Program-made: the position numbers and the translations under genes | Shown: positions 6,326-64,000 of the stretch, in pieces | Numbering within the stretch: the stretch's first letter is position 1 | How the letters are laid out: every line of letters starts with the position of its first letter | Origin: Symbiodinium natans | Lineage: Eukaryota > Sar > Dinophyceae > Suessiales > Symbiodiniaceae | Assembly (NCBI GenBank): GCA_905221605.1 | Contig: CAJNDS010002130.1 | Coordinates: 562,001 to 626,000 of the forward strand | Reading direction: 5' to 3' | DNA: 64,000 bases | Notes under the pieces: model-generated | The model's database searches: none | Seen by the model: the letters and a program-made list of their open reading frames with translations, nothing else | Told to the model about the DNA's origin: nothing

Positions 6326-7075
6326 TTTGCCCTAAGCCCTAAACCCTTAACCCTTAAAGCCCAAGCCCCTAAACCCCGAACCGTAAACCCCCCAACTCTC
6401 AACCCTTAACCCCCTTTAACCCTCACAGCCCAAGCCCCTAAAATCAGCGATCCCCAAACCCCAAACCCCAAACCCCAAACCCCAAACCCCAAAACCCCAA
6501 ACCCCAAACCCCAAACCCCAAACCCCAAACCCCAAACCCCAAACCCCAAACCCCAAAACCCAAAAAAACCCTGAACCCTAAGCCCTAAGCCCTAAACCCC
6601 AACCCCAAACCCCAAACCCCAAACCCCAAACCCCAAACCCCAAACCCCAAACCCCAAACCCCAAACCCCAAACCCCAAACCCCAAACTCTAAATCTTAAA
6701 TCCTACACCCTAAACCCTAAACCCTAAACCCAAAACCCCCCTCAGCAAAATCTCTCCCCCGAGGTCGTGCCAGAGCCGCTCGGCGAGGTCCCAGCCTGGG
6801 CTGCCGACGTGGCTCCGCAGTCGAGGCCTCCAGGGTTTGGGGTTTAGGGTTTGGGGTTTAGGGTTTGGGGTGTAGGATTTAAGATTTAGAGTTTGGGGTT
6901 TGGGGTTTGGGGTTGAGGGTTTAGGGTTTAGGGTTTGTGGTTTAGGGTTTGGGGTTTAGGGTTTGGGGTTTAGGGGTTTAGGGTTTGGGGTTTGGGGTTG
7001 AGGGCTTAGGGTTTAGGAGTTTCTTGGGGGTTTTGGGTTTAGGGTTTAGAAGTTCCTTGGGGTTTTGGGGTTTGG
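6326..7075. repeat. Large CCCCAAA / TTTGGGG inverted array complex
   Basis: 6326-6740 is mainly CCCCAAA with CCCTAAA edges; 6831-7075 is the opposite orientation (TTTGGGG, TTTAGGG). The 90-nt spacer (6741-6830) is unique and GC-rich with no clear frame. Head-to-head orientation could fold or could reflect two independent insertions. Confidence 0.85.
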
Positions 7076-13612: not shown

Positions 13613-13620
13613 ACAGGTCG

Positions 13621-13700
13621 GCAATCGATTACTCAGCAGAGCCCGAGATGCAATGGACCGCAATGATGGCGGCGCATGAAGAGAGCAAGGACAACTGCAG
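13621..13700 (+). CDS. Exon-like island between two arrays
   Basis: After AACCCTAGCACAG^, one frame reads SAIDYSAEPEMQWTAMMAA, another NRLLSRARDAMDRNDGGA. Flanked by CCCTAAA on the left and TTTAGGG on the right. Frame not settled; family unknown. Confidence 0.3.
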
Positions 13701-15284: not shown

Positions 15285-15532
15285 AACCCTAAATCCTAAA
15301 TCCTAAACCCTAAACCCTAAACCCTAAGCCCTAAACCCTAAACCCTAATTCGTTGAGCCGCGACTCAGGATCAGCTGAAGCCGGGGGATCGGGAACTGAA
15401 GCTTTGCCGTGCTGTGCGCCATTCACTTTCTCCACTTGAAGAGTTCTTGGTCAAGGTTTAAACATAGGGTTTAGGGTTTAGGGTTTAGGGTTTAGGGTTT
15501 AGGGTTTAGGGTTTAGGGTTTAGGGTTTAGAA
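15285..15532. repeat. Facing CCCTAAA and TTTAGGG arrays
   Basis: CCCTAAA-type at about 15285-15350 and TTTAGGG at 15466-15532, separated by about 115 nt of unique sequence with no settled frame. Confidence 0.85.
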
Positions 15533-19598: not shown

Positions 19599-19946
19599 TC
19601 TGTACCTCAATGTTGGAGTCCACGGTGTCATCCAGGAACTGTTGCGGCTAGGCACACCCCCCCCCCCAGGAAGATCCGAAAGTCTAGCTACACCTATGTG
19701 CAACAGCTATGCAGCTAGGTTGGCTTTTGGGACATCTTGTATTTTCCTTGCCGGGGTTTATCAGAGACCCTATATATAAACTATTGTTCAAAGGGTTTAA
19801 AGGCCAACCCTATTAAGTTTGCTGCAGCCCTTTACTAGCAGAGCTTGTGGCGATGTTCACTCCACCGGAGGCCTCCTCTAGGGTTGAGGCTTCGGGGTTC
19901 TAAGGGGGGTTTTGAGGATTTCTGATTTGAGGACTTCGGAAAGTTT

Positions 19947-20290
19947 ACCCTAAACCCTAAAGGCCCTCAACCCTAAATCCTAAAGGCCCTAAACCCTAAA
20001 GGCCCTAAACCCTAAAGGCCCTAAACCCTAAAGGCCCTAAACCCTAAAGGCCCTAAACCCTAAAGGCCCTAAACCCTAAAGGCCCTAAACCCTAAACGCC
20101 CTAAACCCTAAACGCCCTAAACCCTAAACGCCCTAAACCCTAAACGCCCTAAACCCTAAACGCCCTAAACCCTAAACGCCCTAAACCCTAAACGCCCTAA
20201 ACCCTAAACCCTAAACCCTAAACCCTAAACCCTAAGCCCTAAACCCTAAACCCTAAGCCCTAAACCCTGAACCCTAAACCCTAAACCCAG
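19947..20290 (-). repeat. Composite 16-nt telomere-like repeat in two blocks
   Basis: Unit GGCCCTAAACCCTAAA repeated about seven times, then CGCCCTAAACCCTAAA about eight times, then plain CCCTAAA. One G-to-C change separates the two blocks, so each was amplified as a 16-mer. Confidence 0.95.
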
Positions 20291-20436
20291 ACTCTTCACA
20301 CCAGCTTCTTCATTGGGGTGGAACATGAGCTCTTCAGGTTTCGAAGGATGCGGCCGCGAGCACAGCAGCCGGGACAGGCCGGGGCATCCATTCCGACTTC
20401 TGGGATTTGGGGTTTCAACCCCAAAACCCTCACTTG

Positions 20437-20770
20437 GGTTTAGGGTTTAGGGTTTGGGGTTTAGGGTTTAGGGTTTAGGGCTTAGGGTTTAGGGTGAAAC
20501 GATTGAAAGCCAGAGCCCAGGGCTTTTTTGATACCCCCCCAGCAACACGTTTCAGGTCACAACACGCCCACTGGCGCTGCTAGCACCCGATCCGATGCCA
20601 AAGAACCAGCAAGGCGCGCCAGAGGGGTCAGACGGAACACTAAACCCTACGCTGGATTTTAGGGTTTAGGGTTTAGGGTTTAGGGTTTAGGGGTTAGGGT
20701 TTAGGGGTTAGGGTTTAGTGGTTTAGGGTAAATTATAAGAGGGTTTAGGGCTTAGGGTGAGGGTTTAGGG
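20437..20770 (+). repeat. Two TTTAGGG arrays and a GGGTGAATCATAAGA repeat
   Basis: Arrays at about 20437-20495 and 20660-20770, followed to about 20830 by four copies of AGGGTGAATCATAA(G/C). Confidence 0.85.
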
Positions 20771-21059
20771 TGCATCATAAGAGGGTGAATCATAAGAGGG
20801 TGAATCATAACAGGGTGAATCATAAGAGGGATCCCAATCCTAGATTACCTTCGAGTTGGAATAGGGATCCTAATGAAAAGTTTCCGAAGCCCGAAACAGG
20901 AACCCTCAACCCCCTCTCTCCCCCCCCCCCCCCCCCCAACACAAAAAAAAGAAAGAAGGAAGAAAGGAAAGAGCTCAAAGCAGTTCAAGTATGCAGAAGC
21001 CCACGTCATTCCGAAACAGCGGTGGAAGAGCAGCTATGTATGAGCAGCCATATATTCTT

Positions 21060-21335
21060 AGAGTCTTAGATTTACTATATTATCATATTATTACAATAGT
21101 ATACATCTTATAGTCTTTCTATATTAGTATATTACTATCAAATTATATTAGTATATTACTATCAAATTAGGTTTCTTTATTAAGATGCTACTACATAATT
21201 TGTATGTTCTTACTTCACGAGAATTTTGAAGTTATTAAACCAATATTCGTATCATAATTTTGATATTTTCTACTACTTGACTATTCTGGTAGTATACATG
21301 CTAGAGTAGTATATCAACTTCTGTCTATCATTGTA
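21060..21335. other. AT-rich block
   Basis: Rich in TATTATTA and repeated TTAGTATATTACTATCAAAT (twice near 21125-21165). No gene seen. Same character as 960-1565. Confidence 0.6.
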
Positions 21336-21743
21336 TTGTTAGGATGCCGACATGTGCATGCACAAGCACTCTGAGCAGGTTCGGTATCACCCTCCCGGCC
21401 ACCACGCAGGCCTGTCCAAGCGATGGGAGCCAGGGTTTAGGGCCTCTGCGCATTTTCCACATACTTGGAAGCTCTTTTAACTTAGTAAGTAGGGTTCGTA
21501 AGTTGGGTTATGGGGAATACATGAGGGCTTCTGGGGGATACTAAGTAGACATACTAAGTCAAAAGAGCTTCCAAGTAGTTCCCACCTACCCGAATCGATC
21601 ATGCGGAGGTCCACCAGGTTTGCGGATTAGAGGGGTTTCGGGCCGCAGGCCCTTCTTTCGGGTGGGCGGCTCCCTGTGTTGCGTGGCATCTCTGGAAATT
21701 CACTGTCAGTACACGGCCATATGTCACGTGCCAAGAGTTGCAG

Positions 21744-21806
21744 ATGTCTCCGTCGGCCGAGGGACCGACAGAGGCGGAGTTGCTTGCCAGCGAAGCTTTG
21801 AAGCAG
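21744..21806 (+). CDS. Poly(A) polymerase exon 1 (N-terminal)
   Basis: After GAGTTGCAG^; 21 codons starting with ATG, MSPSAEGPTEAELLASEALK plus Q. Ends at a GC donor (CAG^GCAGCC). Earlier coding sequence is possible because the AG precedes the ATG directly. Confidence 0.8.
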
Positions 21807-24800
21807 GCAGCCGGCTGATGGTTTGGAAGGTTTAGGGTTTAGGGTTTAGGGTTTACGGTTTAGGGTTTAGGGTTTAGGGTTTAGGGTTTAGGGTTTAGGG
21901 TTTAGGGTTTAGGGTTTAGGGTGTTTGGAGTTTAATTCATGATTTGCAGTATTAGCATCGCCGGTATCGTGCATCCCTACTTGAAGGTTCATAGGTAATG
22001 TTGAAGTGTAGAAGCGCTACATTCTTCTTTCCAGCCCCGAGTAACGTAGGAGCTGGAGATCGACTTCCCGCGTGAGACGCAGAAGGGTCTCGCAAAGCGC
22101 GAGGAGGTCCTCCAGGAGACGCGAGAGCTACCACTGCCCTTCAACGCCGGAAAAGCATCAGATGCGCATCACAGGGTTTAGTGTTTATTTAGGGTTTACG
22201 GTTTCGGGTTTAGGGAGATTCAGTGTTAAGGGTTGAGGGCTTTAGGGTTCTGCAGTTCAGGGTCGAGGCTTCTTTTTCTTGGCATGATTCTTCGGTCTGG
22301 AGAGTGGTTCTCTTCTTGGCACCCTAAACCCTAAACCCTAAACCCTAAACCCTAAACCCTAAACCCTAAACCCTAAACCCTAAACCCTAAACCCTAAACC
22401 CTAAACCCTAAACCCGAGATCCTAGACCCATGAAGGAGCTCCAGCGCATCATCTCTGAGTGGATCTCGGAGGAGGGCCGAGCGCAAGGCCGGGAAGGTTA
22501 AGGACCCCCTAGGGGCCTTCGGGGTTGCATTGCTACTCGGAGGGCTTGTTTAGGGCTTTGGGTTTAGGGCTTTTTAGGGCGTGAGAGGTCAGTTCTGCAT
22601 TTTGGTGCCCTTGTGGGTCCCTGTTAGACTACCGAGCCTTGTGTTTCGACTTTCGGGTGTGCCACTGAGGGACCATAAGGGCAAATGCTGCGGCGTCGAC
22701 CTCGGCCCGAAAATCTGGGCGCCGAAACACCCTGGAAGATTCCTGGGGTTATTGGCTGAAATCCGTGGCTCGGCTCGGAGGCTCAATCCTGTGGCTCTGT
22801 GGCTAACAAGAGCAGGGTACCCTTTTGCCTCGGTCACTCTTGGTGGTTTTTGTAGGGTTCGGTTCCCTTTCAAACAAGAAAAGGGTATCCCTTTCTTTGC
22901 CTAGGCCACGCTTGGACGCAGCCCGCCCAACACCAAGCGGGACCCTGGGGACCCCAAACCCGAAGCCTAAACACTCAAATGGTGAGCAGGGGTCGCCTTT
23001 GGAATCTCTGACGGTCACGACCGGGACCAAGGCGAACGNNNNNNNNNNNNNNNNNNNNNNNNNNNNNNNNNNNNNNNNNNNNNNNNNNNNNNNNNNNNNN
23101 NNNNNNNNNNNNNNNNNNNNNNNNNNNNNNNNNNNNNNTGTGCGTGTGTGTCTGTGTGTGTCTCTGTGTGTGTGTGTGTGTCTGTGTGTGTCTCTGTGTG
23201 TGTGTGTCTCTGTGTGTGTCTCTGTGTGTGTGTCTCTGTGTGTGTCCTCTGTGTGTGTCTCTGTGGTGTCTCTGTGTGTGTGTGTGTGTGTCTCTGTGTG
23301 TGTGTGTGTCTGTGTGTGTGTGTGTGTGCGTGTGTGCGTGCGATGAGGCATTGTTCTTGTGATCACTTAAATACTTAACTGTAGTTCGAACATGCATGTT
23401 GGTTCAACCCGAATGAAAGCCAGCAAGAGAACTGTTTTGAGTAAACGAATCTAGCGCTGTATCGAAATGGGGAAATGCTTGTGAACATTTTCAGCGTCAT
23501 TAAACAGTCCTCAAGTTTAGCAAGCTCGAAAATCAGGCGACCAAGGAAAACGAGGCGAACCCTCTGTCTTACGGACATCTGCAAGTAGAGTCTCGCACCG
23601 ACTGGATCCAGCGTCTCAATCGCAGAAGGAGCCAATATGAGCATGTTTCAAGCATAATGTATCCTGGGGGTAGTTCTGGCTTTGGAAAGTGAGGGGCTAG
23701 AAGAGGCTCCGGAGCCCAAGCCGGAACGGAACGGGTAGGGGAGGAGCCAGAAGGGAGAGGCACCGGAACGGGACCCCCCGCCGGAACGGTTTTTTGGGGA
23801 AACAGTTGCCTGAATCTAGCAGGTGTTCTTCGTCGCAAGTCGCAAGCGTGCATCAACCGGGAAAGCTCCGAAAATATGCCATGGTCCGACGCAAGGCCAC
23901 GCAAAGGCAAGAAGCATGCAAACCAAATCGGAAACTGGAATGACGTTCACACGTAAACTTCCCAGAAGGCTCTCCTGGAAGGGCTTTTTTAGTAAATGGT
24001 GGAAATATTCTCACTCTCATGAACCCACACCTTCTTTTCAAAGCCCCTAGAGCCGAAAAAGCAGACTGGCAAAATACGAGCCACATTCCAACTCCACCAG
24101 CAAGGACTGCGTTCCCATCCCCGGAGCGCCCGTTGCCCAGTATCAGGGTTTAGGGTTTAGGGTTTAGGGTTTTAGGTTTTAGGGTTTTGCAATTTACCTG
24201 AGCGAAAGCATCCTAAATTCACAGGCTTATGTCTCCAAGACCTCGGAACCCTGAAGCCCCCTAAGTCCCCGGCTGAAACTACCTCTCTCTCTCTCTCTCT
24301 CCTTCCCTTGTTCTTTTGCTCTCCTTCTCTCTTTCTCCGTTTTCTCTCCTTCTCTCTTGTTTTTTTCTCTGTCTCTCTCTGCTCCCCCCTCTCTCTTGGT
24401 CATGCTGAGGTACACCCCGATCATCAAGCTGAAGCTGTGGAAAGTTGGGGGCTGCAGTCGCTGGTAAAGGTAGGAATTCAGCGTCAGTTCCTGGGTCTTA
24501 AGAGGAGCTATACAGGATACCAAGTTCCCTGATGTATATAGGTGTACTTTAAGGGCCTACATAAATGGAACAGGGTTTTGGGTGTTATTGTCTTTTTCTT
24601 ATATAGGGACCATAAGGGAATAGTCTTGCACTTTCATGCCCCAAACTCTAAACCCTAAACCCTAAACCCTAAACCCCAAACCCTAGACCGTGTTGAAATG
24701 TTTGCACACGCCCGTCCTAGGTCAGCATCGATCTGCTGTTCGCTCGTTTGGTGAGGCAGGCCTGCCCCCTAAACCCTAAACCCTAAGCCCCAAACCCTAA

Positions 24801-27800
24801 ACCCTAAACGCTAAGCCCCAAACCCTAAACCCTAAACCCTAAACCCTAAACCCCAAACCCCAAACCCTAAACCCTAAACCCACTTTAGGATCTGCAGCAT
24901 CGGGCTACATGCGGGCGAATGCGTTTTGGTTGGTGGCGGTGGGCATCTGCGCCTGCACGAGGTCGCTGGATGACGGCAAGGATGTTGAAGAAGCGGTGAA
25001 GGCTTGCGCACCCTAAACCCTAAACCCTAAACCCTAAACCCTAAACCCTAAACCCTAAACCCTAAACCCTAAACCCCAAGCCCTAAACCCTAAACCCTAA
25101 GCCCTAAACCCTAAACCCTAAACCCTAAACCCTAAACCCACTCTGCGGACTTGAGACATATGAGCCCCCGCTGCAGGATGACGAGGTGCTGCGGGATATG
25201 GACGACAAAAGTGCCCCGAGCCTCAGTGCTGCGCGGCCTCCGGCTGTCGAGATGAAAGGGCACGACTCAGACCGGTTGATTTAGCTACTATTTGTTCAAG
25301 ACCCCCCCCCCAAAAAAAAAAAAAAAGGAAATTATAAAAAGCAATTATAAAATACAAAAGGAATTCTTCCTTGTATGGGCAACATGGGGATTATTACCTT
25401 TCATTTGTTCTTTTTGTTGGGGGGGGGGGTCTTGAGCAAATAGTAGTTTGGAGGCTGACACCCCGGGACCTTCCCGAGTGCACAGTCCGCGAGAGACTCC
25501 AGGTCCGGTGCATCAACGGATATCGAGTTGCCGCCTGCAGCTTAGAGGCTCAAAGCCTGGGATGTTCCCCCATATACTAAGAGTCCTTAGTAGGGATGAT
25601 GATTAGGGGGGTGCTTTTTTATCCCTCTTATGGCCTGTTAGTATAAGCCCAGACCCCTGGGAGGATCCCAAAAAATAGAGCCCCAAAATTGTGCCCTCTT
25701 CTACTATTGGGTCATTCTTGGGAACCCTTAAGGGGGATCCCTTTTTTGGATCCCCCCCAGGGGTCTGGGAGGGGGAACAGCCCTGCTCGAGGCGCTTGGG
25801 CCGGAGGCTCCGGGGTTCAGGGATGTTTCAGGTTTAGATTTTTGGAGGATTTTAGGGTTTTTAGGGCTTCTAGGGCTTTTCGGGCTTTTAGGTCTTTTAG
25901 GGCTCTTTAGGGCCTAAAGGCGTTCTGGGCTTTTAGGGTTTTCGGGCAAAGTTTTCGGGCTTTCGGAAGAACACAAGCCGCCTAAGGACAAGATCCTGCA
26001 ACTGGTGCCAAACCAGGAAGCCTTTCGAGAAACTCTGCGCTTCGCGCTGTGCTCAGCGTGGTCCAAATGGGCAGTGCTCTAAAATATGGTACCCTTAACC
26101 CTTAACCCTAAGCCCATCTCAACCCTAAACCCATCTAAAGCCTAAACCCATCTAAACCCTAAACCCTAAACCCCCAAGCCCTAAGTTTGAATAAGGCGCC
26201 CATATTTCGGGATAGCCCCACATCCAGAGGACGCCACAGCCAGTAGGAGTGCGAAAAAGTAAAGGGTAAGTGAAGAAACTTGAACCGACAATCTGCGAAG
26301 CCCCCAAAACTCCCCCCCCCCTCCAGGAAGCACAAAAAACCCCAACATGCCGTGTTCCCCTAAACCCCCTAAACCCCCTAAACCCTAAACCCTAAACCCT
26401 ATACCCGAATACCCTAATACCCTAAACCCCAAATACCCTGAGACCCGAAACCGAGCCTAAACCCTAAACCCTAACCCTAAACCCCTAAACCCCAAACCCG
26501 AATCCATAGTCTTCCTCCTTGCTGTCGCTGTAAGGTCAAGTGCTGGGCCAAGAGGCATTGAGAGCTTCAGAGGTTTCCGAGTTTTGGGTTTGGGCTTTCG
26601 GGTTTCGGGTTTCGGGTTTCGGGTTTCGGGTTTCGGGTTTCGGGTTTCGGGTTTCGGGTTTCGGGTTTCGGGTTTCGGGTTTCGGGTTTAGGGCGCTTTA
26701 GGAGAAGTCTAGAAGGGGATGGAAGAAGAGTAACTGGCCACTTGCGCCAGATTTCGTATGCAATGCTGGCTTCATTGTTGCGGGTGGCAGGCAGCCGCCG
26801 ATGCACCATCCAAAGAGGGGGGCGGGGTTTAGGGCTTAGGGTTTAGGGCTTAGGGTTTAGGGTTTAGGGTTGAGGGCTTAGAGTCCCTTTGTGGGGTGCC
26901 GGAAAAGGTAAGAAGCCGTTTCTGCCGCAAATAGGCACGAAAGTCTCAAGCTCTAAACCCCAAACCCCAAACCCCAAACCCCAAACCCCAAACCCCAAAC
27001 CCCAAACCCCCAACCCCAAACCCCAAACCCCCCCAAACCCCAAACCCCAACCCCACCCCAAACCCCAAACCCCAAACCCCAAACCCCAAACCCCCAAACC
27101 CCAAACCCCAAACCCCAAACCCCAAACCCCAAACCCCAAACCCCAAACCCCAAACCCCAAACCCCAAACCCCAAACCCCAAACCCTAAACCCTAAACCCA
27201 AAACCCTAAACCCTAAACCCTAAATCCACAGCTCGGGAGCCACTGGCCCCACTTGAGAGGCGTGGAATCTACTCAAATGCCGGAAGCCTGGCTCCATGCT
27301 CCAGGATCTGCAGAGGGTTTAGGGTTTTGGGGTTGGGGTTTGGGGTTTAGGGTTTAGGGTTTAGGGTTTGGGTTTGGGGTTTGGGGTTTGGGGTTTAGGG
27401 TTTAGATCTGCAGAGATCTGAAGCTTGAGGCTTGAGTGAGCAAGTGGAGCAACTGCCTCTCGCATTGAGGTGTTGGGCTTTTTTGGTGGCATCACCTGGG
27501 CCTTGTTGGTGGCTCGCGTTTGCAAGGTGCCCAGATCCCTAAAGCAGGAGCCCCGTGTGCGAGTGAACACAGTGGGTGCCACATAGGTGTCAGCATGGCA
27601 GGCTCGGATATGCGTGCCAGCAGGAAGTGGCTCGTTTTTTTTGCCGATAAGCCTTCCGGGATTCATGCAAGCACTTGCTTTCGAGTCAGAGATGTACGAG
27701 GATGCTGTGGAAGGATCATCGCAACCTCCGTGGCAGCTTCAAGCAATGCGTGCAGGCAAGCTTAACGCGAAGACGCTTCAGGCCCGATGTACGAAGACTA

Positions 27801-30800
27801 TGATGATGCCTTATTCGATACTCAATGAAACGGCACAACATGGGACCACCGGATTAACACGGAGCTGGAGTCGACAGTATCTGAACCAACCCAAGCCCTA
27901 AACTCTGAACCTAAATGCGCTCAAAGGTCAGCTATACCCCAACTACTGCTTCAGCCAGCTTGTCAATCGGTCGACGGCTCGGGCAACAAGAAACTGTCAC
28001 GCCTGGTTCTGTCATGACACCTGTGTCTGATACTCTCATCTACTGTGTGGATTTTAAGGGTTTGGAGGTGCATGGTTTTGTTCTTTAGGGGAACGGTTCC
28101 CGCAGGCCCAATCCTAAACCCTACTAAACCCCCAAAACCCTAAACCCTAAAACCCTAAACCCTAAACCCTTTTGGTTCCTCTGTAAAACTGCATGAGCCA
28201 GTTGAGCCTAAACCCTAAGCCCTAAGCCCTCAACCCTAAACCCTAAACCCTTTGAGCTCCTACGAAGAAGGTTCTTTCGCACCTACGACCAGTGGAACTG
28301 GTCCAAACCCGTGCTGCCCGGCACTCGGGCGCAGCTTATGAATCTTTAGGGTTTAGGGGTTTAGGGTTTAGGCTTCAGGGTTTAGGGTTTAGGGTTTAGG
28401 GTTTAGGGTTTAGGGTTGTGGGGAACGTTGCGGGCCTGCCGTGGGCTGCCTATCCTCATCTCACTTGACACAACTGACTTCTCCAACAGCTGAACTTTAT
28501 ACATTTTGTGGGTTTCCTTATTTAGTAGTAGGAATAATAAAGTTTAGCCTTCTAAGTAAGACAAAGAGTGTGAAGCCACTGGGTCAATTCGGAAGTTCCC
28601 AGGCTCTGCGAGGTCGTGGAGAGTGTTCCCGGAATCGTTGGCCTCAAGGCCGTGCGCCAAGTCGGGCTGCGGGGTCCGGCTAGTGACTGTTTGCTGAGGT
28701 CTTGGCTTTCTATTTAACAGTATGAAGTAGAACTCAATGATAGCCTACGATGGTCAGACCGCCAGTAAGCATTACCCAGTCTCACATCGCAGAGTCACGG
28801 CGAAGTCATGCAGCTGCTATGCCCACGCCAGCCTTGGAATCCGAAGACGAGCATCGCAGACAAGCGTCCGAGCTGCAAGAGGTTGCAGGCTTCACCTGTT
28901 GCACGTCGTTCGAGATACACTCAGGCAGCACTTGATGCCTGTCATTACCCCCGCCTTCCCGGCGATGAATTCCACGCCGCGCGGCTGCAGGGCTCCAGAT
29001 GTTTTAAGGTTTAGGGTTTAGGGTTTAGGGTTTAGGATCTAGGATTTAGGATCTAGGGCTCTTTGTGGTCGCCGTCCACAGCCCAGGCACAACGTGACGG
29101 ACACCACCAAGCGAATTCTCCTGGACGAGTTCCGACGAGGATACGAGGCTCGCAGCCTAGCATTCGGACAGTTCACGCTTGGTCTAGCACGAAGAGCCGT
29201 CTCAGCCGACCCAATTTGAACATGTCGCCAGGTTGTGAAAAAGGTGGAGAACAACAAGGCTGATTGGAAGGACACGGGACAAGGGGTCCGAATCAGGGAC
29301 CTCAGGCATGTTAAAATGCTGCCAGGAAGTTCACAACCCCTTCCCCTTCTTCAGCAATGACCCGTTCAAGTGAGCCCGGCGACTGCTTGGGGAGGGAGAC
29401 TTGGGAAGTTGGAAGGTAGCCATATCGATCCCCTCTCGCAGCCAAAAAGCTGCAAGCTCCCTAAACCCTAAACCCTAAACCCTAAACCCTAAACCCTAAA
29501 CCCTAAACCCTAAACCCTAAACCCTAAACCCTAAACCCTAAACCCTAAACCCTAAACCCTAAACCCTAAACCCTAAACCCTAAACCCTAAACCCTAAACC
29601 CTAAACCCTAAACCCTAAACCCTAAACCCTAAACCCTAAACCCTAAACCCTAAACCCTAAACCCTAAACCCTAAACCCTACCTTGCCAGGCACTACCTCT
29701 GCTTGGAGGTTCATGCCAAGACCGCGGAAGCGCATGTGAAGTGGCGGCCCTAGGCCCATCCGACGTGGCCGGACATTCGACTCTTCACCATTTGGCGGTG
29801 CTGCTATGACTGTTTGATATGACTGATATGACTGAGACTAAGACTAAGACTGAGACTGAGTTATGCTGAGTTGTGCCAGCAGGGTGGCTCCGGCGTCTCG
29901 TGCGGCTCAAGTATGCAGCGCATGTAAGACTTGACGAGCAGCTGTTCCACGTTGCTTGGATCCAATTGGCAGCACAATGGTCTGCATTCGAGTGGTTCGC
30001 TTAAGTGGGGAAGTCATGGAGATCCCCGTGGCCCTGCCACGAGACGAACACGTATGCGCGGGATACGTGAAGATGCACCTCGCAAAAGCTTCCCCGCGCC
30101 CACCCACAGCCTGTGTGGTCCGGCTGATCGGCACCGATGCGAAGGAGATCGGAAACACTGAGCAACTCACTTGGGAATGCCTGGAACAGGGAGTGCTTCA
30201 GCATGCGCTAGTGGACGTGATGTCCCTGGCCCCGCGTTTGCTGAATGTGGATCCATTCCATCTCATCTTTCCTGCAGATCCGAAGAAGCTGATGGACCCA
30301 TGGCTTGTCATCGACCTCGCCCTCGACATTTTCGAGAAACGGGGTCGTGATGTGGATGTTTGCCAGCGGTTCTTCTCTGCTTGGACAGAAGCAGTCCTGG
30401 GTACATCGAAAGAGGAAGCAAATCAGGTTGAGCCGGACGGATGCACATGGCTCACCAGAATGCTCGCCCTTTGGGATGAACTTCGGCGCCGAATTGTGCA
30501 AAGTCAGCCTTGGGATGGGCCGCCAAATCCATTCGGTGCATGTGCCCTTCCTGCAGTCCACATGACGACCATTCGCTTTGTGAAGGACAAGATGCAGGTT
30601 CAGACTCTCGAGCAGACTTTCCAGACGGTCGGGGGCGTGCTCGTGGAGGCAACGTCCCGGGATCCCAATGCACTGAACTTGGAGCCATTCCATGTCGTCT
30701 TTCCGGCAGATCCGAAGAAGCTGATGGACCCAGCTCTCGTCATCAACCTTGCCCACGGCATTTTCAAGACAAGGGGTCGTGATGTTATTGCTTGCCAGCA

Positions 30801-32818
30801 GTTCTTCTCCGCCTGGACAAAAGCAGTCATGGGCACATCGAAAGCGGGAGCAAATCAGGTTGAGTCAGATGGGCGCACGTTGCTCACCAGAATGCTCGTG
30901 CTTCTGAAAATTGTTCATGAAGCAGACGAGCCTTCCGATCACCCAAGGCCGTCAGAGTTCGGAGATGACTTTCTCATGCCGGCCCAACATGCCATTGTGA
31001 TGACGATGATTTGGCTTGTAAGAAAGAAGCTCCACATTCAGACGGTAGAGAAGACCTTCCACGTCTCCCCCTACGATGGGATGATGAAACTCCTCTGGAC
31101 CTTCGTGCAGGACAAACTCTCATTACCACGAGGCACCAAGACCTCAAACCCCCCAAAGTGAGCTCGAGAAAATCTAGATCCGAACCGCACAACCCTGAAC
31201 CCTAAACTGTAAACCCCACCGTAATCTCGCTGTGACTGTCCCCAGGGGCTGGGCATCACGCTGGTCTCGTCGAGGGGTATGGGGCAGACCTGATGCTTGC
31301 ATTGATCCAGAGAGGCCTTCCCAGGAGGTACTGGGCAGGTTGCTTTGGCTTCTCTTGGTGTTCCGTTTTGCTTTTTGGATTTAGGGTGTAGGGCTAGGCG
31401 GTATCATGCTGTATCGTTCCTATGTCATGGTTTCCTCATGTCTTGCAGGCTGCTTCGGCCCTTTCGACGACAACCTCCTGCAGTACATCCTCGAATCAAC
31501 ATGCAAACCAGACCCGTATGAACATACTGAGGCCGAAGGAAGACTGAGCGTTGCTCTTGCTAAGAAGTACACTTTGGAAGAGTTGTGCCACCAGAGCTCC
31601 GACGGTTACAATGCACTCTTCTACGCTGAGCGAGTTGCTCGTGAAATTGAAGACAGATGGCCAGTGAATGCTCCACACGGTCTCAGGATTTGGGTCCAAC
31701 TTCGTGACGTTATTAGGGAGCAGCTGCAAGTGCGTGCGGGGGAGTTTCAGGGCACATTGTGTGAGTTGGCTGCGCTGGCGGGATCGGTGAGGATGGCCTT
31801 GGGCGGCCAGTCCCTTCCGGCGTTTGATGAACAGCTTTGGGCCCGGGCTTCAGTGATTCGTGAGCAGTGGTTGAGCATGGGATGGCACTTTGCCAGAAAT
31901 GACAGGCACGGACAAACCTCGGAGGTCGTAAGTTGGCATCTCCAAGCAGCTCGCCAGGGCCAGGGGGGCAAGGATGCATCTCACGAGCCACCCGCCATCG
32001 CAAAGACTTCTGTGAGGCGTGCCTTGTAATTTATTGTTTATGGAGTTGAATTCACCACCTCCCCATACCTCCCTTCGGGATGCGAAACGCATCTTGCGCA
32101 AGCCATGTACAGTTTGGCGTGGGGAGTCGTCGAAGCTTCTTGGGCCTGTCAGGCCGAACCCCAACACGACCCTGCAGCCGAGTCATGAGATGGTTAAGGT
32201 TCTGAGCCCTCGGTCCTAAGCCGCGAAGCCGCCAAGCCGTACCTGTCCTGAACATCCCTAAACGTGCTCTCATTCCTCAAGACGGGGACCGAGGGTTCAG
32301 TGGTTTAGGGCGTGTAGGATTTGGGGTCTATCAGTTAAGGGTTGCAGGGCAGTGTTTTCGTGAAACTAATTAACTGAAATAGTTCAACGTCGAAGTTCTC
32401 TTCGAGATAAGAGCGGAGGTTCCATTTCCAGCTCTGTCGATAGCAGAGGGGCCTCCTACTGATGCATAATTGACCAACCCGGATCCCGCGACAGCGTGCA
32501 GAGTGAAAACGTGCCTGGCGATTCTGGAGCTGAGCCGGTGCCGCAAGAGTCATGACTGGTTTACACGATGCCGCAGAATAGAAACCTGTGACAAGGTTCT
32601 GCGGCTGGGTTGAGAGCAAGCTTCGCATTCTCCACAAGACCCTCGAGGCCTCAACAGAGTGGTCAAGCCCATGTGGGCCCCCACATGTGTCCCCCGTCTT
32701 GACCTCACAGGGAGCCGTTTCTGGAATGATGATCCACCCCAATCCGGAGCAGTACGAGCTGAGGCCGGGGCCTAGGCTGTTTGCTGCGACTCGAAGGTTC
32801 GTGGGTAGCCTTAAGTAG
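21744..32818 (+). CDS. Poly(A) polymerase, multi-exon gene (by-eye model)
   Basis: Nuclear poly(A) polymerase adds the poly(A) tail to pre-mRNA 3' ends. Nineteen short plus-strand exons were recognised from the conserved order of the eukaryotic family: N-terminal GPTEAELLASEALK; REEVLQ/ELQRIISEW; the third catalytic-Asp strand SIDLLFARL; SLSAARPPDKILQLVPN; FRETLRF; RRGIYSN; VLGFFGGITWALLVARVC; FFRTYDQWNWSKPVL; HLMPVITPAFPAMNST; RILLDEFRRGYE; HYLCLEVHAKTAEAHVKW; GWVESKLRIL; HPNPEQYE. From exon 11 to exon 19 all phases join. The exon carrying the first two catalytic Asp (the usual G-[GS]-x-D-x-D region) was not found; it should lie between 22488 and 24409, where the 100-N gap is. Two short pieces (the usual LWAK and LYPN segments) also were not located. 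Most introns start with GC and many hold telomere-like arrays. Confidence 0.85.
21828..21924 (+). repeat. TTTAGGG array in poly(A) polymerase intron
   Basis: About 13 units within the 243-nt intron 21807-22049. Confidence 0.95.
22050..22115 (+). CDS. Poly(A) polymerase exon 2
   Basis: ACGTAG^ acceptor; 22 codons, ELEIDFPRETQKGLAKREEV then LQ. The right end implies a GA donor (CAG^GAGACG); this joins in phase 0 to exon 3 with no gap against the family pattern. Confidence 0.75.
22321..22415 (-). repeat. CCCTAAA array in intron
   Basis: About 13 perfect units in the intron 22116-22435. Confidence 0.95.
22436..22487 (+). CDS. Poly(A) polymerase exon 3
   Basis: ATGAAG^GAGCTC acceptor; ELQRIISEWISEEGRAQ. 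Right end is a GC donor at 22488 or a GT at 22497. Confidence 0.75.
23039..23138. other. Assembly gap, 100 N
   Basis: Exactly 100 N, so its true length is unknown. It borders a TG microsatellite and lies in the poly(A) polymerase interval where the catalytic exon is missing. Confidence 1.
23139..23341. repeat. TG/TCTG microsatellite
   Basis: TGTG runs with periodic TCTC; probably why the assembly broke here. Cys/Val and Thr/His frames over it are artefacts. Confidence 0.95.
23345..24270. other. Intron-type unique sequence, no gene settled
   Basis: No recognised exon. A G-rich purine stretch with repeated CCGGAACGG (about 23680-23800) and a short TTTAGGG array (24146-24187) are the only notable features. 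Confidence 0.4.
24410..24443 (+). CDS. Poly(A) polymerase exon 4
   Basis: Preceded by a long CT-rich tract (24276-24396), the best polypyrimidine tract in the window, and CATGCTGAG^. Reads (G)YTPIIKLKLWK, ending at a GT donor. Confidence 0.8.
24645..24690 (-). repeat. CCCTAAA array in intron
   Basis: About six units in intron 24444-24720. Confidence 0.9.
24721..24759 (+). CDS. Poly(A) polymerase exon 5, third catalytic Asp
   Basis: CGTCCTAG^ acceptor; VSIDLLFARLVRQ in phase 0, GC donor (CAG^GCCTGC). The Asp of SIDLLFARL is the third metal-binding carboxylate of the family. Confidence 0.9.
24767..24880 (-). repeat. CCCTAAA/CCCCAAA array filling an intron
   Basis: Fills almost all of the 129-nt intron 24760-24888. 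Confidence 0.95.
24889..24903 (+). CDS. Poly(A) polymerase micro-exon 6 (tentative)
   Basis: Fifteen nt, DLQHR, between CACTTTAG^ and a GC donor (CGG^GCTACA); phase 0 both sides and placed where the family has a PEDL-type segment. Confidence 0.55.
25011..25140 (-). repeat. CCCTAAA array in intron
   Basis: About 18 units in intron 24904-25176. Confidence 0.95.
25177..25242 (+). CDS. Poly(A) polymerase exon 7
   Basis: CGCTGCAG^ acceptor; 22 codons, DDEVLRDMDDKSAPSLSAAR then PP; GC donor (CCG^GCTGTC). Joins exon 8 without gap against the family pattern SLN-x2-R-x2-D-x-I-L. Confidence 0.9.
25285..25446. mobile_element. Inverted-repeat element with homopolymer arms
   Basis: CTACTATTTGTTCAAGAC plus poly-C at the left; poly-G plus GTCTTGAGCAAATAGTAG at the right: 27-28-nt near-perfect terminal inverted repeats around an A-rich core. 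Lies in intron 25243-25986. Confidence 0.85.
25559..25646. mobile_element. MITE family B copy (B4)
   Basis: GATGTTCCCCCATATACTAA...CCTGTTAGTATAAG; right end cut by the neighbouring family E element. In a poly(A) polymerase intron. Confidence 0.75.
25648..25769. mobile_element. MITE family E copy (E2), intact
   Basis: CCCAGACCCCTGGGAGGATC and inverted GGATCCCCCCCAGGGGTCTG at the ends. It abuts or interrupts B4. Confidence 0.8.
25987..26043 (+). CDS. Poly(A) polymerase exon 8
   Basis: CCTAAG^ acceptor; DKILQLVPNQEAFRETLRF (19 codons); GC donor (TTC^GCGCTG). Very strong family match. Confidence 0.92.
26098..26500 (-). repeat. CCCTAAA and degenerate arrays in intron
   Basis: Arrays at about 26098-26185 and 26355-26500 in the 1.2-kb intron 26044-27257. 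Confidence 0.85.
26587..26690 (+). repeat. TTTCGGG array
   Basis: About 14 near-perfect units of a C-substituted variant, a unit type not common elsewhere in the window. Confidence 0.95.
26825..26880 (+). repeat. TTTAGGG/CTTAGGG array
   Basis: About eight units alternating TTTAGGG and CTTAGGG. Confidence 0.85.
26944..27226 (-). repeat. CCCCAAA array, about 280 nt
   Basis: Mostly CCCCAAA, ending with CCCTAAA just before exon 9. Confidence 0.95.
27258..27278 (+). CDS. Poly(A) polymerase exon 9
   Basis: RRGIYSN (7 codons) between CACTTGAG^ and a GC donor (AAT^GCCGG). The exon could start earlier at 27232. The usual LWA-containing segment before it was not located. Confidence 0.8.
27313..27407 (+). 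repeat. TTTAGGG/TTTGGGG array in intron
   Basis: About 13 units inside the 191-nt intron 27279-27469. Confidence 0.95.
27470..27526 (+). CDS. Poly(A) polymerase exon 10
   Basis: GCATTGAG^ acceptor; VLGFFGGITWALLVARVCK (19 codons), the conserved central-domain helix; GT donor. Confidence 0.93.
28108..28252 (-). repeat. CCCTAAA arrays before exon 11
   Basis: Arrays at about 28108-28170 and 28205-28252, the second touching the acceptor of exon 11. Confidence 0.9.
28257..28315 (+). CDS. Poly(A) polymerase exon 11
   Basis: CCTTTGAG^; LLRRRFFRTYDQWNWSKPV plus L; GC donor (CT^GCCCGG) leaving two bases that join exon 12. Confidence 0.9.
28346..28425 (+). repeat. TTTAGGG array in intron
   Basis: About ten units. 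Confidence 0.9.
28603..28648 (+). CDS. Poly(A) polymerase exon 12
   Basis: TTCCCAG^; (L)LCEVVESVPGIVGLK; GC donor (AAG^GCCGTG). Confidence 0.75.
28832..28863 (+). CDS. Poly(A) polymerase exon 13
   Basis: CACGCCAG^; PWNPKTSIAD(K), the family VW-x-P segment; GC donor (CAA^GCGTCC). Confidence 0.8.
28925..28975 (+). CDS. Poly(A) polymerase exon 14
   Basis: ACACTCAG^; QHLMPVITPAFPAMNS(T), the signature HLMP-[IV]-ITP-[AS]-[YF]-P segment; GC donor (CAC^GCCGCG). The preceding intron is 61 nt. Confidence 0.93.
29087..29147 (+). CDS. Poly(A) polymerase exon 15
   Basis: CAGCCCAG^; HNVTDTTKRILLDEFRRGYE; GC donor (GAG^GCTCGC). The 111-nt intron before it contains four TTTAGGG units. Confidence 0.92.
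29232..29270 (+). CDS. Poly(A) polymerase exon 16
   Basis: GTCGCCAG^; VVKKVENNKADWK. Right end is either a GA donor at 29271 or a GT at 29286; both keep the frame. Confidence 0.8.
29326..29369 (+). CDS. Poly(A) polymerase exon 17
   Basis: TGCCAG^; EVHNPFPFFSNDPF(K); strong GT donor (AA^GTGAGC). Confidence 0.85.
29459..29680 (-). repeat. Pure CCCTAAA array, about 31 units
   Basis: The most homogeneous array in the window, inside the 320-nt intron 29370-29689, ending nine bases before the acceptor. Confidence 0.98.
29690..29746 (+). CDS. Poly(A) polymerase exon 18
   Basis: CCTTGCCAG^; (K)HYLCLEVHAKTAEAHVKW(R); GC donor (CG^GCCCTA) joining in phase to 32596, 2.8 kb away. Confidence 0.88.
29977..31161 (+). 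CDS. Intronless 394-aa protein with internal duplication, nested in poly(A) polymerase intron
   Basis: Single open frame; the first ATG (29977) sits in a good context (ACAATGG). An upstream in-frame TTG at 29956 is unlikely as a start. Residues 1-60 (IRVVRLSGEVMEIPV, then a helix, then VRLIG) look like the ubiquitin-fold N-terminus often seen on dinoflagellate proteins. Residues 88-215 and 232-362 are a diverged internal repeat: both contain FPADPKKLMDP, RGRDV, CQ-x-FFSAWT-x-AV, GTSK, ANQVE and LTRML. No catalytic motif recognised; function unknown. It lies on the same strand inside the 2.8-kb intron 29747-32595. GGCTCAAG at 29904-29911 matches the 3' end of the dinoflagellate spliced leader, which would fit a reinserted mRNA copy, but eight bases may be chance. 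The opposite-strand frames are shadows. Confidence 0.75.
   Translation: MVCIRVVRLSGEVMEIPVALPRDEHVCAGYVKMHLAKASPRPPTACVVRLIGTDAKEIGNTEQLTWECLEQGVLQHALVDVMSLAPRLLNVDPFHLIFPADPKKLMDPWLVIDLALDIFEKRGRDVDVCQRFFSAWTEAVLGTSKEEANQVEPDGCTWLTRMLALWDELRRRIVQSQPWDGPPNPFGACALPAVHMTTIRFVKDKMQVQTLEQTFQTVGGVLVEATSRDPNALNLEPFHVVFPADPKKLMDPALVINLAHGIFKTRGRDVIACQQFFSAWTKAVMGTSKAGANQVESDGRTLLTRMLVLLKIVHEADEPSDHPRPSEFGDDFLMPAQHAIVMTMIWLVRKKLHIQTVEKTFHVSPYDGMMKLLWTFVQDKLSLPRGTKTSNPPK
31406..32029 (+). CDS. Second nested reading frame, 207 codons, unknown
   Basis: Open from ATG 31406 to TAA 32029. A good acceptor (ATGTCTTGCAG^G at 31449) inside it suggests the real exon may start at 31450: FGPFDDNLLQYILES..., then EELCHQSSDGYNALFYAERV and RIWVQLRDVIREQL, then an Ala/Gly-rich part. 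No family recognised. It does not join the preceding frame in phase through the GTGAGC at 31157, so it is probably a separate gene piece. Confidence 0.5.
   Translation: MLYRSYVMVSSCLAGCFGPFDDNLLQYILESTCKPDPYEHTEAEGRLSVALAKKYTLEELCHQSSDGYNALFYAERVAREIEDRWPVNAPHGLRIWVQLRDVIREQLQVRAGEFQGTLCELAALAGSVRMALGGQSLPAFDEQLWARASVIREQWLSMGWHFARNDRHGQTSEVVSWHLQAARQGQGGKDASHEPPAIAKTSVRRAL
32596..32818 (+). CDS. Poly(A) polymerase exon 19 (C-terminal)
   Basis: TGACAAG^; (R)FCGWVESKLRILHKTLEAS..., MMIHPNPEQYE, ending FAATRRFVGSLK and TAG. It matches the family GWVESKLR and HPNP segments; two extra residues (FC) precede GW. An additional intron within it is possible. Confidence 0.85.
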
Positions 32819-32829
32819 GATGCCCTGTA

Positions 32830-34260
32830 CCAAAGTTGGGCCAGAAAAACAGTTGCCCCACTTTTGACCCTAAACCTACTTCTGACTCGTGCTGGTTTGA
32901 GCGCAGTCTTCTGAGCCCATCCCAGTTTCAATTTAGGCCCTCAGTTCCTTGGGACTGCATGGAGGTTTCCGAGAATTAGGGGTGCATAGTTTGGGTTTTC
33001 TCAAAATAACCTTTTGGGCATGGACCACAGGTTTCCTTTCAGGGTGTGTTTAGCCCCCGAGGTTGGGAGGAGTACCATGCTGGGGATAGACTACTCTATA
33101 GAGCAGAAAGCACGGCTGCATCTTTGATTTTCACCTCCAAGCTGCAGGAACACGGACGCCGAGTGGGAGTGGGGCTGCCGGGACCTGAGATGCGCTCCGT
33201 AGTCCCATTTGTGCCGAAGTCTTGTCCGAAACATACCCTAAACCCTAAACCCTAAACCCTAAACCCTAAACCCCAAACCCTAAACCCTCAAACCCCCACG
33301 AGCCGAGACCCGTTGGGCACCCGAAAGCTCCAACCGTAGGCGGTTGCCGTTGGGATCTTTGATATCTTTCCTCAGGCTATCTTAGCCATCTTAGCTCGAA
33401 GTCTGTTTGCAGAGGGTTGACAGGGCCAACGGGTAAGACCCCCAAGAGCGGAGACCCCCTAAACAGTGAGCCCAGGTGGCATGTTCATCGAACTTGCGTT
33501 CCTCCAAGATCAGGGCTCCTACGTGGGCCAGACGGTGGATTTGAGGCCGGGGCTGATTGGTTGTGGGCAGGGGCTGATTTAGGGGGTTGTTCGTTATATT
33601 GCCTTGGTGGTCTCTTTAAGCAGGTTTTTTTTTGGTATGGGGTTCTGATTAGGGTGTCTAGGGGCTATGTTAAGTTAAGGTATAGGAGCAACAGACAAAG
33701 AGGCCACCGGCTTCTATAAGTTGTTCAGGTTTAGAGTTCGGCGCCCAAAACCTTCCATGAAAGAATTAGATAGAGGGTTCGCCTTTGATTGGCCCGCGTC
33801 AGCTAAAGTCCGAGGCGCGCCAGTGCGCGATAGTTTCTGCGAGAGAGCTCTGGTTGCGAGAGCGCGCGATAGCGCGTGAGAGGGTAGGTGTTGCTTATTA
33901 AACATGGCTGGGTTCAGGCTATTTTGAAGGTTTGGGGTCTTGTGTTGGAAGTGTTTAGCTTCTTCCCGCGATAGTCCGCGTCAGTGCAACCCCCAAAAAA
34001 ACACGTCCGCGTCAGCGCGCGAAGAGGTCTGCATAAGGCCGCGCGAGAGCCCGCGAGAGCACTTCCATAGTCGAATGAAAAGTTCAAAGGGTTTTGGCCA
34101 CTGCCCAGTTGACAAAGACACTTCAACCTTAAAACCCTACGTCCTCAACCCGAAGCTTCAAACCCTGAACCGCTCCATAGCCTTGCAAGGGTTTCGGGTT
34201 TAGGGCTTGGGCGCCTAGGCCCGTGAGTCTTCCCAAATGAGCCCCTAAGAACTTAAAGTG
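32830..34260. other. Mostly intergenic, no gene recognised
   Basis: Contains a CCCTAAA array (33234-33290). At 33785-34070 the tetranucleotide pairs GCGAGAG, GCGCGC and CGCGTCAG recur in a repeated CG-rich stretch. No exon assigned. Confidence 0.4.
33234..33290 (-). repeat. CCCTAAA array
   Basis: About eight units. Confidence 0.9.
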
Positions 34261-34346
34261 CTAAACACTAAACCCCAAACCCCAAACCCTAAACCCTAAA
34301 CCCGAAACCCTAAACCCCAAACTCCCCAAACCCCTAAGCCCGCCAG

Positions 34347-35230
34347 GCCCTCCTTGCACCAGTTCGCCGAAGTGGTCGCCACCTGGGCGGAGAAGGTCTC
34401 CGAGATGCGTGCCGACTATAGAGCTTTACACCCGGTTCGGGATTCTGGGGGTTGGAGACTGAGGTTAGGGTTTAGGGTTTAGGGTTTAGGGTTTAGGGTT
34501 TAGGGTTTGGGGTTTGGGGTTTAGGGTTTAGGGTTTAGGGTTTGGGGTTTGGGGTTTAGGGTTTAGGGTTTAGGGTTTAGTTCTCGAAACGATGACAGAT
34601 CGTGGCAGGAGACCTACAACTCCGAGTTTAAGCTCAAGCTCAAGGCTGTGAAGAGGACGAAGAAGAGAGTCGGCGTGAGTCGGCAGCGGGGGGGGGGGGG
34701 CTTGCTCTCGATTCGACTCCCTTCTCTTGGCGTCCTTCTCAGAAAGAGTTCGAAAGCAAAACGTGGCAGCTCGGAGGGGGTATCATAGAGACCAAAGACA
34801 AGAGACTCAACTTCCTGGCAGGTGTGCTCAGAGCGTGGGGTTTGGGCTTTGGGGTCGTGAGCTGTGACGCTTCGCTGCACGTTGAGATGTGGGGAAGGAC
34901 GCGTCTTCCGGAGTACGCGCTGAAGGCGCGGAGTGCCAAGCGCCGAGCCAGACCCCCCTCGTGGCACTTTTGTCACAGGGGGGTTTGGGTGGGGGTGCAC
35001 TCAACTCCCTGGTGCCCTGAAACCTAAACCGTGTAAACCGCGCTCCCTCCCTCTCTCTCTCTCTCTTTTTCTGTCTCGCTCTCTCTCTCTCTCTCTCTCT
35101 GCGTCTCGGTCCCCTTCTCCTGATCTCCGTTTCTATCTCCGCCTCTGTCGACTGGGCTCGATCGTGTTTGATCAATGAAGCCAAAGCTCTCGCAGGCAGA
35201 GGCGGCCAAGAGGACTCGTCAATTCAAAGG
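34347..35230 (+). CDS. Four-exon segment of an unrecognised helical protein
   Basis: Phase-compatible exons: 34347-34422 (SLHQFAEVVATWAEKVSEMR..., GC donor), 34609-34674 (ETYNSEFKLKLKAVKRTKKR plus VG, GTGAGT donor), 34743-34818 (KEFESKTWQLGGGIIETKDK then RLNFL, GC donor) and 35196-35230 (AEAAKRTRQFK, GTGAGC donor). Charged and largely helical; no family recognised. The first intron holds the TTTAGGG/TTTGGGG array 34463-34580, the second a poly-G run, the third a TC microsatellite (35041-35102). Start and end of the gene were not found. Confidence 0.6.
34463..34580 (+). repeat. TTTAGGG/TTTGGGG array in intron
   Basis: About 17 units in the intron 34423-34608. Confidence 0.95.
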
Positions 35231-35239
35231 GTGAGCGAC

Positions 35240-42681: not shown

Positions 42682-43293
42682 TGATGTCAGTCAACAGTGC
42701 CTTGCTCAACAGACTCGTTAGCAGTCGGGGCGTGCCAAGCCTTTCAGCACCTCAGGCACCAATTGTGTAAAGATCGCTTGTGCAGTACCCTATCTTCTTG
42801 CCAGATTTGACGTGCATGTCTTGCGACATCACACGACTATGACAAATTCGGCATGCTTGCTGCAATCACCCCTGGCCTCTGCTGCCAACTCGCAATACCA
42901 CGCCACATCAATCGCTTACCATGATGGCGTCACCATGTTGCTGGATGCTGTCAGCGACGTCGTCGCCAGAAAGGACCACAGACAAGTGTCTTCAAGTCTG
43001 TTCTGTCAGACTGCTTGAGAGGAGTCTGCTGAATCGCAGCAGCCTCTAGTTCCTCTACCACCCCCACAACCATACAATCCAGGAGTGGACCAAGCGTATC
43101 TCCCAGCTGGGCACGCAGAAGTTGTGGCGAGATGCCTGCCAGGCCCGACATCATGGGTGTAGGGGTCTCGAGCTTCATGCAGAGGTGTAGGGCGAACCCC
43201 CTAGAACCTAAAACCCTGTAACCCTAAAACCCTAAACCCCAAAACCCCAAAACCCCAAAACCCCAAACCCTAAACTCCGGTCTCGGACTCGAG

Positions 43294-43367
43294 CCGGAGA
43301 GCCAGAGCAGTGGTTCTTACAAGAGATCCAGGCCCTGGCAGCCATGCGTCGCGAGGAGCGTGTGCAG
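43294..43367 (+). CDS. PPR exon
   Basis: EQWFLQEIQALAAMRREERV then Q, GT donor. Joins the next exon in phase 0. Confidence 0.6.
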
Positions 43368-63871: not shown

Positions 63872-63975
63872 TTGGGGTTTAGGGTTTAGGGTTTAGGGTT
63901 TAGGGTTTAGGGTTTAGGGTTTAGGGTTTAGGGTTTAGAGATTTAGAGATTTAGAGATGTAGGGTTGAGGGTTTA
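63872..63975 (+). repeat. TTTAGGG array with TTTAGAGA tail
   Basis: About ten perfect units, then TTTAGAGA and decayed units. Confidence 0.95.
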
Positions 63976-64000
63976 GGGATTTAGGGCTTCGGGTTTGTTA

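Follow-up and report, generated by a model that had tools for sequence, protein, structure and literature searches.

Telomere-like arrays mostly point outward from the mini-exons of a dinoflagellate poly(A) polymerase gene

A poly(A) polymerase gene in at least 34 mini-exons

The window analysed here is a 64,000-nt stretch of the Symbiodinium natans genome (C1818:562001-626000, from an assembly of 759,417,921 bases in 2543 contigs). Its plus strand carries a structurally coherent dinoflagellate poly(A) polymerase (PAP) gene at 19853-35234, in which at least 34 mini-exons of 18-70 nt are separated by GC/GA/GT-AG introns. The model was obtained by spliced alignment to dinoflagellate PAPs, with a profile of the relatives P0001-P0006 fitted to the DNA and introns modelled explicitly; exon boundaries were corrected after the alignment, and frame, stop and identity were checked. 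The first-pass annotation had drawn the gene at 21744-32818 with 19 exons; the gene is longer, and 24 of the 34 recovered exons fall inside that interval. The exons, all on the plus strand and all from the spliced alignment, are:

1st-6th: 19853-19870, 20338-20377, 20556-20613, 21379-21409, 21762-21806, 22050-22115
7th-12th: 22436-22487, 24105-24127, 24410-24443, 24721-24755, 24962-25001, 25177-25212
13th-18th: 25503-25532, 25987-26043, 26535-26554, 27260-27278, 27470-27521, 27927-27969
19th-24th: 28271-28315, 28603-28648, 28832-28863, 28925-28975, 29087-29147, 29232-29270
25th-30th: 29326-29369, 29690-29740, 32596-32647, 32711-32763, 33148-33176, 33476-33545
31st-34th: 34347-34395, 34609-34655, 34898-34925, 35196-35231 (followed by the stop)

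The annotation's central proposal, that islands between arrays join in order into a PAP, was borne out by the spliced-alignment score of the PAP profile against the window (1358), the highest of all controls being 45.2. Scores were 28.4 for the reverse complement, 41.6 for the reversed sequence, 34.6 on average (maximum 45.2) for 20 Markov-2 resamples and 27.5-40.3 for six other combinations of window part and strand. The model starts with an ATG at 19853, ends with a TGA at 35232-35234 and is identical to the transcript-derived relative P0001 at 445 of 476 compared residues (93.5%), a value slightly flattered by the use of the P0001-P0006 profiles in fitting the splice model. One junction is doubtful, namely 24443/24444, which has a GT donor and gives the residues WK in place of the RG of P0001-P0003.

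The PAP identity held up in the HMM check: in the final model, the 374-residue downstream part matched PF04928 PAP_central (E=4e-60), PF04926 PAP_RNA-bind (E=3e-19), profile positions 126-194 of PF20750 PAP_NTPase (E=2e-17) and solved PAP structures (E=6e-80), and a single unstitched 48-aa frame matched PF04928 by itself at 6e-7. A first stitch, made by eye with prior knowledge of what a PAP looks like, also had dinoflagellate PAPs as its best protein matches; among the 120 listed of 888 PAP matches, the best with a named species came from Effrenium voratum and Durusdinium trenchii. That stitch contained the wrong stretches TYEPPLQ and ALCSAWSKW, missed exons such as 26535-26554, and was dropped in favour of the spliced alignment. 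The locus shares with canonical eukaryotic PAPs (PF20750, PF04928, PF04926) the domain order, the central and RNA-binding domains and the SIDLLFARL motif, which we take to be the site of the third catalytic Asp; its differences from them are confined to gene structure, and its GS...DxD exons are presumably unsequenced at the locus. Exons for this segment (GSYRLG...GSDIDTLC) had no convincing match in any frame on both strands of 22497-24070, nor in the whole window. In P0001 the missing stretch is about 55-60 residues long. Because an assembly gap falls within 22497-24070, the interval where the segment is expected, the catalytic exons presumably lie in that gap:

23039-23138, no strand: 100-N assembly gap, presumed site of the missing catalytic exons, from sequence and the failed exon search

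The segment is included in a PAP paralogue of the same genome (L026, C420 near 141.7 kb), of which 15 exons of 24-59 nt were recovered. Its 14 introns are without arrays; 13 measure 52-99 nt and one 266 nt, and their donors are 7 GT, 6 GC and 1 GA.

The first-pass annotation had also expected other small islands of the window to be exons, and one further gene at least, located at about 43.1-53.5 kb, bears this out:

43086-53522, plus strand: pentatricopeptide-repeat (PPR) gene, 23 mini-exons modelled, used as second test gene; the coordinates give the span of the model, not the gene ends

The PPR frame is open in the two parts tested, and two of the exons, 43086-43352 and 46129-46195, are modelled with less certainty than the others. 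Over the 53 scorable introns of the PAP and PPR genes, donors were GC in 37, GT in 10 and GA in 6, and the base following the acceptor was G in 98%; the alignment permitted only GT, GC and GA donors with AG acceptors and rewarded AG/G. PAP introns are mostly GC-AG/G, like those of Symbiodiniaceae, for which the accessible text of PMC11453091 gives a GC/GA-AG share of 25-74%. The donor classes are those of the non-canonical introns of dinoflagellates, but here the introns hold telomere-like arrays in an exon-related orientation, undescribed in the literature found, as far as its accessible text goes. G+C content of exons was 0.61.

Telomere-like arrays inside genes and across the genome

Tandem-repeat analysis found 77 telomere-like arrays of at least 20 nt in the window, 41 in the G orientation (TTTAGGG) and 36 in the C orientation (CCCTAAA), scattered over the window as far as about 54 kb; one further array lies at 63875-63996. 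TTTAGGG was the commonest unit in most of them, and in some a variant such as TTTCGGG or TTTGGGG prevailed. Of the 32 scorable PAP introns, 19 held arrays when these were called by tandem-repeat analysis; under a looser definition, arrays made up 20.3% of PAP intron bases and none of the PAP exon sequence, so that they are not, as the first-pass annotation had it, the main intron content. Array counts exclude the PAP intron with the gap (22488-24104) and an uncertain PPR intron (46196-46788). None of the 57 modelled exons of the two genes overlapped an array. The following arrays, all from tandem-repeat analysis, are referred to below or illustrate the positions found:

21829-21922, plus: TTTAGGG array, 22 nt past the donor of PAP intron 21807-22049
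22321-22429, minus: CCCTAAA array, ending 6 nt short of the acceptor of PAP intron 22116-22435
24767-24881, minus: CCCTAAA array 11 nt past a PAP donor, an exception to the rule given below
26357-26499, minus: CCCTAAA array, 35 nt 5' of the 20-nt PAP exon 26535-26554
26572-26693, plus: G-strand array of unit TTTCGGG, 17 nt 3' of the same exon
26955-27224, minus: C-strand array, mostly CCCCAAA, 35 nt 5' of the 19-nt PAP exon 27260-27278
27314-27405, plus: TTTAGGG/TTTGGGG array, 35 nt 3' of the same exon
29459-29680, minus: CCCTAAA array of 31.7 perfect copies, ending 9 nt short of the acceptor of PAP intron 29370-29689
34261-34341, minus: C-strand array, 5 nt 5' of PAP exon 34347-34395
34465-34580, plus: TTTAGGG array 3' of the same exon yet closer to the next acceptor, an exception
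51236-51333, minus: CCCTAAA array, 21 nt 5' of PPR exon 51355-51407
51435-51529, plus: perfect TTTAGGG array, 27 nt 3' of the same exon
51863-51906, minus: perfect CCCTAAA array, 31 nt 5' of the acceptor of PPR intron 51408-51937, which also holds 51435-51529

An array at 9082-9239 is unlike the others in that its unit, TAGGCCT, contains the palindrome AGGCCT.

Nor are such arrays special to the PAP gene, being scattered over the window and found genome-wide. The 21-mer (CCCTAAA)3 occurred 1,184,385 and 1,185,204 times on the two strands of the assembly (2.37 million in total), against 33 and 41 (74 in total) for the reversed pattern. In 20 other genome stretches (171.6 kb without N), 322 arrays covered 15.8% of the sequence (0-46% per stretch), and arrays were absent from 4 of the 20, one of these being all N. 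The stretches were not a random draw but were taken by contig number at a fixed position: sample 1 comprised 16 (20 requested, 17 obtained, a 75-base one dropped, one of those used all N), and sample 2 four more. These are tandem telomere units away from chromosome ends, as in interstitial telomeric sequences. In mammals such sequences are reported to arise when telomere repeats are inserted during double-strand-break repair and, as here, they range from perfect to degenerate at internal sites (PMC7215372, accessible text); compared with those described there, the present arrays amount to 15.8% of sampled sequence, lie within introns of coding genes and point outward from exons.

Arrays mostly point outward from exons in two genes

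Most arrays in the two modelled genes obey a simple rule, 5'-(CCCTAAA)n-exon-(TTTAGGG)n-3', and point outward from the exons in the manner of chromosome caps. The PAP gene first suggested the rule, and the PPR gene was modelled afterwards as a second test gene; 31 of 39 arrays fit it and 8 break it, with 19 of 24 fitting in PAP and 12 of 15 in PPR. Of the G arrays, 17/20 lay nearer the donor, and of the C arrays 14/19 lay nearer the acceptor (Fisher p=0.0003). A permutation that mirrored the 31 introns gave p=0.00026, and among nearly pure arrays 9 of 11 fitted (p=0.065). All eight C-to-G pairs no more than 150 nt apart in the two genes enclose exactly one modelled exon; a rank test of C-to-G against G-to-C gaps within these genes was not significant (p=0.15). 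Among the matches listed from the open-access literature, judged by title and start of abstract and with most subscription papers lying outside it, there was nothing on telomere arrays in dinoflagellate introns or on exon-oriented telomere repeats. Exon-oriented telomere arrays are likewise not described in the accessible portions of PMC11453091, PMC7789003, PMC7023079, PMC11508785, PMC11114475, PMC13326754, PMC10334793 and PMC7215372.

The rule holds by array spacing alone

An exon between a C array and a G array reads alike on either strand, and the rule can therefore be tested where genes have not been modelled. In the window outside the PAP and PPR genes, polarity was detected at p=0.006 and 0.011; the second value is the shuffle p for neighbouring arrays, which lay within 150 nt of each other in 6 of 9 C-to-G cases against 1 of 11 G-to-C cases. 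With gaps of 40-150 nt, the counts were C-to-G 29/45 against G-to-C 11/49 in sample 1 (p=6e-5) and 27/33 against 12/31 in sample 2 (p=0.0007). The 40-nt lower bound dates from the first analysis of sample 1 and was picked for reporting once both counts were known; sample 2 is the cleaner test of exon-sized C-to-G spacing. Plain counts of gaps up to 150 nt gave 32/45 against 22/49 in sample 1 (p=0.013) and 29/33 against 16/31 in sample 2 (p=0.002), with 26/33 C-to-G gaps strictly below 150 in sample 2 (p=0.002); the rank test of C-to-G against G-to-C gaps in sample 1 was not significant (p=0.13).

C-to-G gaps were also richer in G+C than G-to-C gaps (0.587 against 0.510 in sample 1, 0.587 against 0.506 in sample 2; the exons have 0.61), and in sample 2 the G+C of C-to-G and C-to-C gaps was without contrast (p=0.66). 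The coding score of the gaps differed weakly, with a median of 5.8 for C-to-G against 3.8 (p=0.08) and means running the opposite way (0.2 against 4.1). Together, these results show that the rule is shared by the PAP and PPR genes and, judged from the spacing of arrays, by two genome samples, and that telomere-like repeats are thereby linked to exon positions across a genome. C-to-G pairs may help to find exons of sizes that gene finders may miss, a use for which the PAP and PPR genes provide the basis. By the C-to-G rule and a splice-bounded coding score, 1728-1802, 6764-6820, 13617-13695 and 15369-15449 are candidate exons outside these genes.

Origin of the oriented arrays

As the cause of the orientation we favour break healing, with selection by splicing as a close rival. 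We suggest, tentatively and at less than even chances, that the arrays arose by telomere-repeat addition at breaks within ancestral introns of about 60 nt. DNA breaks would strike such short introns; the 3' end on the donor side would be extended with TTTAGGG, so that a short intron stub is followed by a G-strand array, and the same extension of the 3' end on the acceptor side would place a C-strand array ahead of a short stub. The extended ends would then be rejoined, and later growth, decay and filler DNA would gather on the far side of each array and lengthen the intron. Exons, being intolerant of additions, would be left bracketed in the orientation of telomere caps.

The stub between a rule-obeying array and its own splice site had a median of 27 nt for G arrays (n=17) and 26 nt for C arrays (n=14), and was at most 75 nt long in 29 of 31 cases, against 58% expected had arrays been placed at random within the same half of the intron. 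Added together the two medians make 53 nt, and the 18 short array-free introns, 13 of which come from the PAP paralogue L026, have a median of 63 nt. Since the stubs are short and sum to nearly the length of a short intron, we read them as the remains of short introns that were broken, extended and later grown. G and C arrays shared an intron in 3 cases against 3.9 expected, which is no excess over chance. Head-to-head G-to-C junctions, possible fossils of rejoined extended ends, exist and are not enriched: pooled over the window and the two samples, gaps not exceeding 15 nt made up 9/106 of G-to-C and 6/104 of C-to-G neighbours. For this reason we slightly lowered our estimate of break healing and slightly raised that of splicing selection. 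It likewise lowered, a little, the broader and rather unlikely reading that exons throughout the genome were bracketed individually, in cap orientation, through repeated telomerase-type healing of 3' ends and rejoining of broken introns. If that reading were true, dinoflagellate introns would have grown in large part through telomere addition. Other units, TTTCGGG or TTTGGGG, make up some arrays homogeneously, so that local expansion by other means also acts.

Selection by splicing, to which we give a slightly lower chance than to break healing, would let arrays arise anywhere in either orientation and keep them only where the sense RNA suits splicing: UUUAGGG, rich in G-runs, would act like an intronic enhancer after weak GC donors, and AG-free, C-rich CCCUAAA before acceptors would avoid cryptic UUUAG/GG sites and serve as a C-rich tract. 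On inspection CCCTAAA contains no AG, GT, GC or GA, and TTTAGGG offers AG/GG, the form of acceptor found in these introns. The shortest distance to an acceptor is 5 nt for C arrays and 23 nt for G arrays; four G arrays end within 40 nt of acceptors. In human cells, according to the accessible text of PMC10334793, G-runs 3' of an exon act as hnRNP H/F enhancers; G arrays here are, however, not clearly tied to GC donors (13/37 GC, 1/10 GT and 2/6 GA, raw counts). Arrays flanked an exon as a pair at 7 of 49 exons against 3.7 expected (p=0.023), which agrees with splicing selection and is not predicted by break healing. Masked array-free introns of the two genes, too, are enriched in G on the donor side and in C on the acceptor side (Wilcoxon p=0.004, 21 introns), but the 14 introns of the array-free L026 show no such polarity (p=0.79) and the 18 short array-free introns pooled give p=0.09, and general compositional polarity was accordingly downgraded as a decisive argument for splicing. 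In 18 long array-free introns, telomere traces were G29:C16 on the donor side and G21:C56 on the acceptor side (raw counts); because L026 lacks polarity and these long introns keep oriented traces, the polarity may stem from decayed arrays.

Compared with break healing, three further accounts are far less probable. Whole introns could have been inserted as introner-like elements with telomere-array terminal inverted repeats, the G arm at the donor and the C arm at the acceptor. The accessible text of PMC7789003 and PMC11453091 describes dinoflagellate introners (Amoebophrya, Polarella), some with inverted repeats, and their repeats near intron ends and potential hairpins recall the present introns, three of which have both arms correctly placed. 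The PAP and PPR introns nevertheless lack a common intron family (the 53 masked introns gave five BLAST matches of 18-31 nt in three intron pairs), and pairing of arms within introns, as counted above, does not exceed chance, so this reading is disfavoured and improbable. A shade less probable still is that G and C arrays fold the pre-mRNA and either join intron ends or loop exons out, with skipping or circular RNA as the outcome. Intron 51408-51937 folds at z=-8.9, and the C-exon-G cassette 51230-51535, at z=-19, forms a long hairpin around its exon; but complementary repeats always fold well, which makes these z-scores uninformative on function, only 3 of 31 array introns carry both arms correctly placed, and the closer pairing sequesters exons and should harm the gene. 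Ordinary expansion of interstitial telomeric or simple repeats, unrelated to exons and polar by chance, accords with the simple-repeat-like variation in unit and purity and with the arrays that break the rule; it is effectively refuted, and we consider it very improbable, given that polarity, seen in PAP, recurred in PPR, in the rest of the window and in the two genome samples. Whichever cause applies, the rule opens to testing how dinoflagellate introns lengthened and how the splicing of introns with weak GC donors is directed.

Other features of the window

An Rfam scan of the window at the gathering threshold and a tRNA scan were empty, and the best match in a search for spliced-leader relics still had 6 mismatches in 21. 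The longest PAP intron, 29741-32595, contains on the same strand a 394-aa open reading frame (29977-31158, plus) with an internal duplication; three relatives match it at 83-86%, one of them in Symbiodinium natans (83%), and neither this frame nor the one relative searched has a Pfam family. A second long frame in that intron (31406-32026, plus, 207 aa) has no Pfam match. At 54752-56013 (plus), a von Willebrand factor A domain and an alpha-kinase domain are encoded in open frames, and tandem-repeat analysis detects no telomere-like arrays in the stretch that contains them; an open frame with a ZZ zinc finger occupies 59880-60773 (plus) in an array-poor region. At about 25280-25448, within PAP intron 25213-25502, an inverted repeat with C-run and G-run ends looks, by eye, like a small mobile element.
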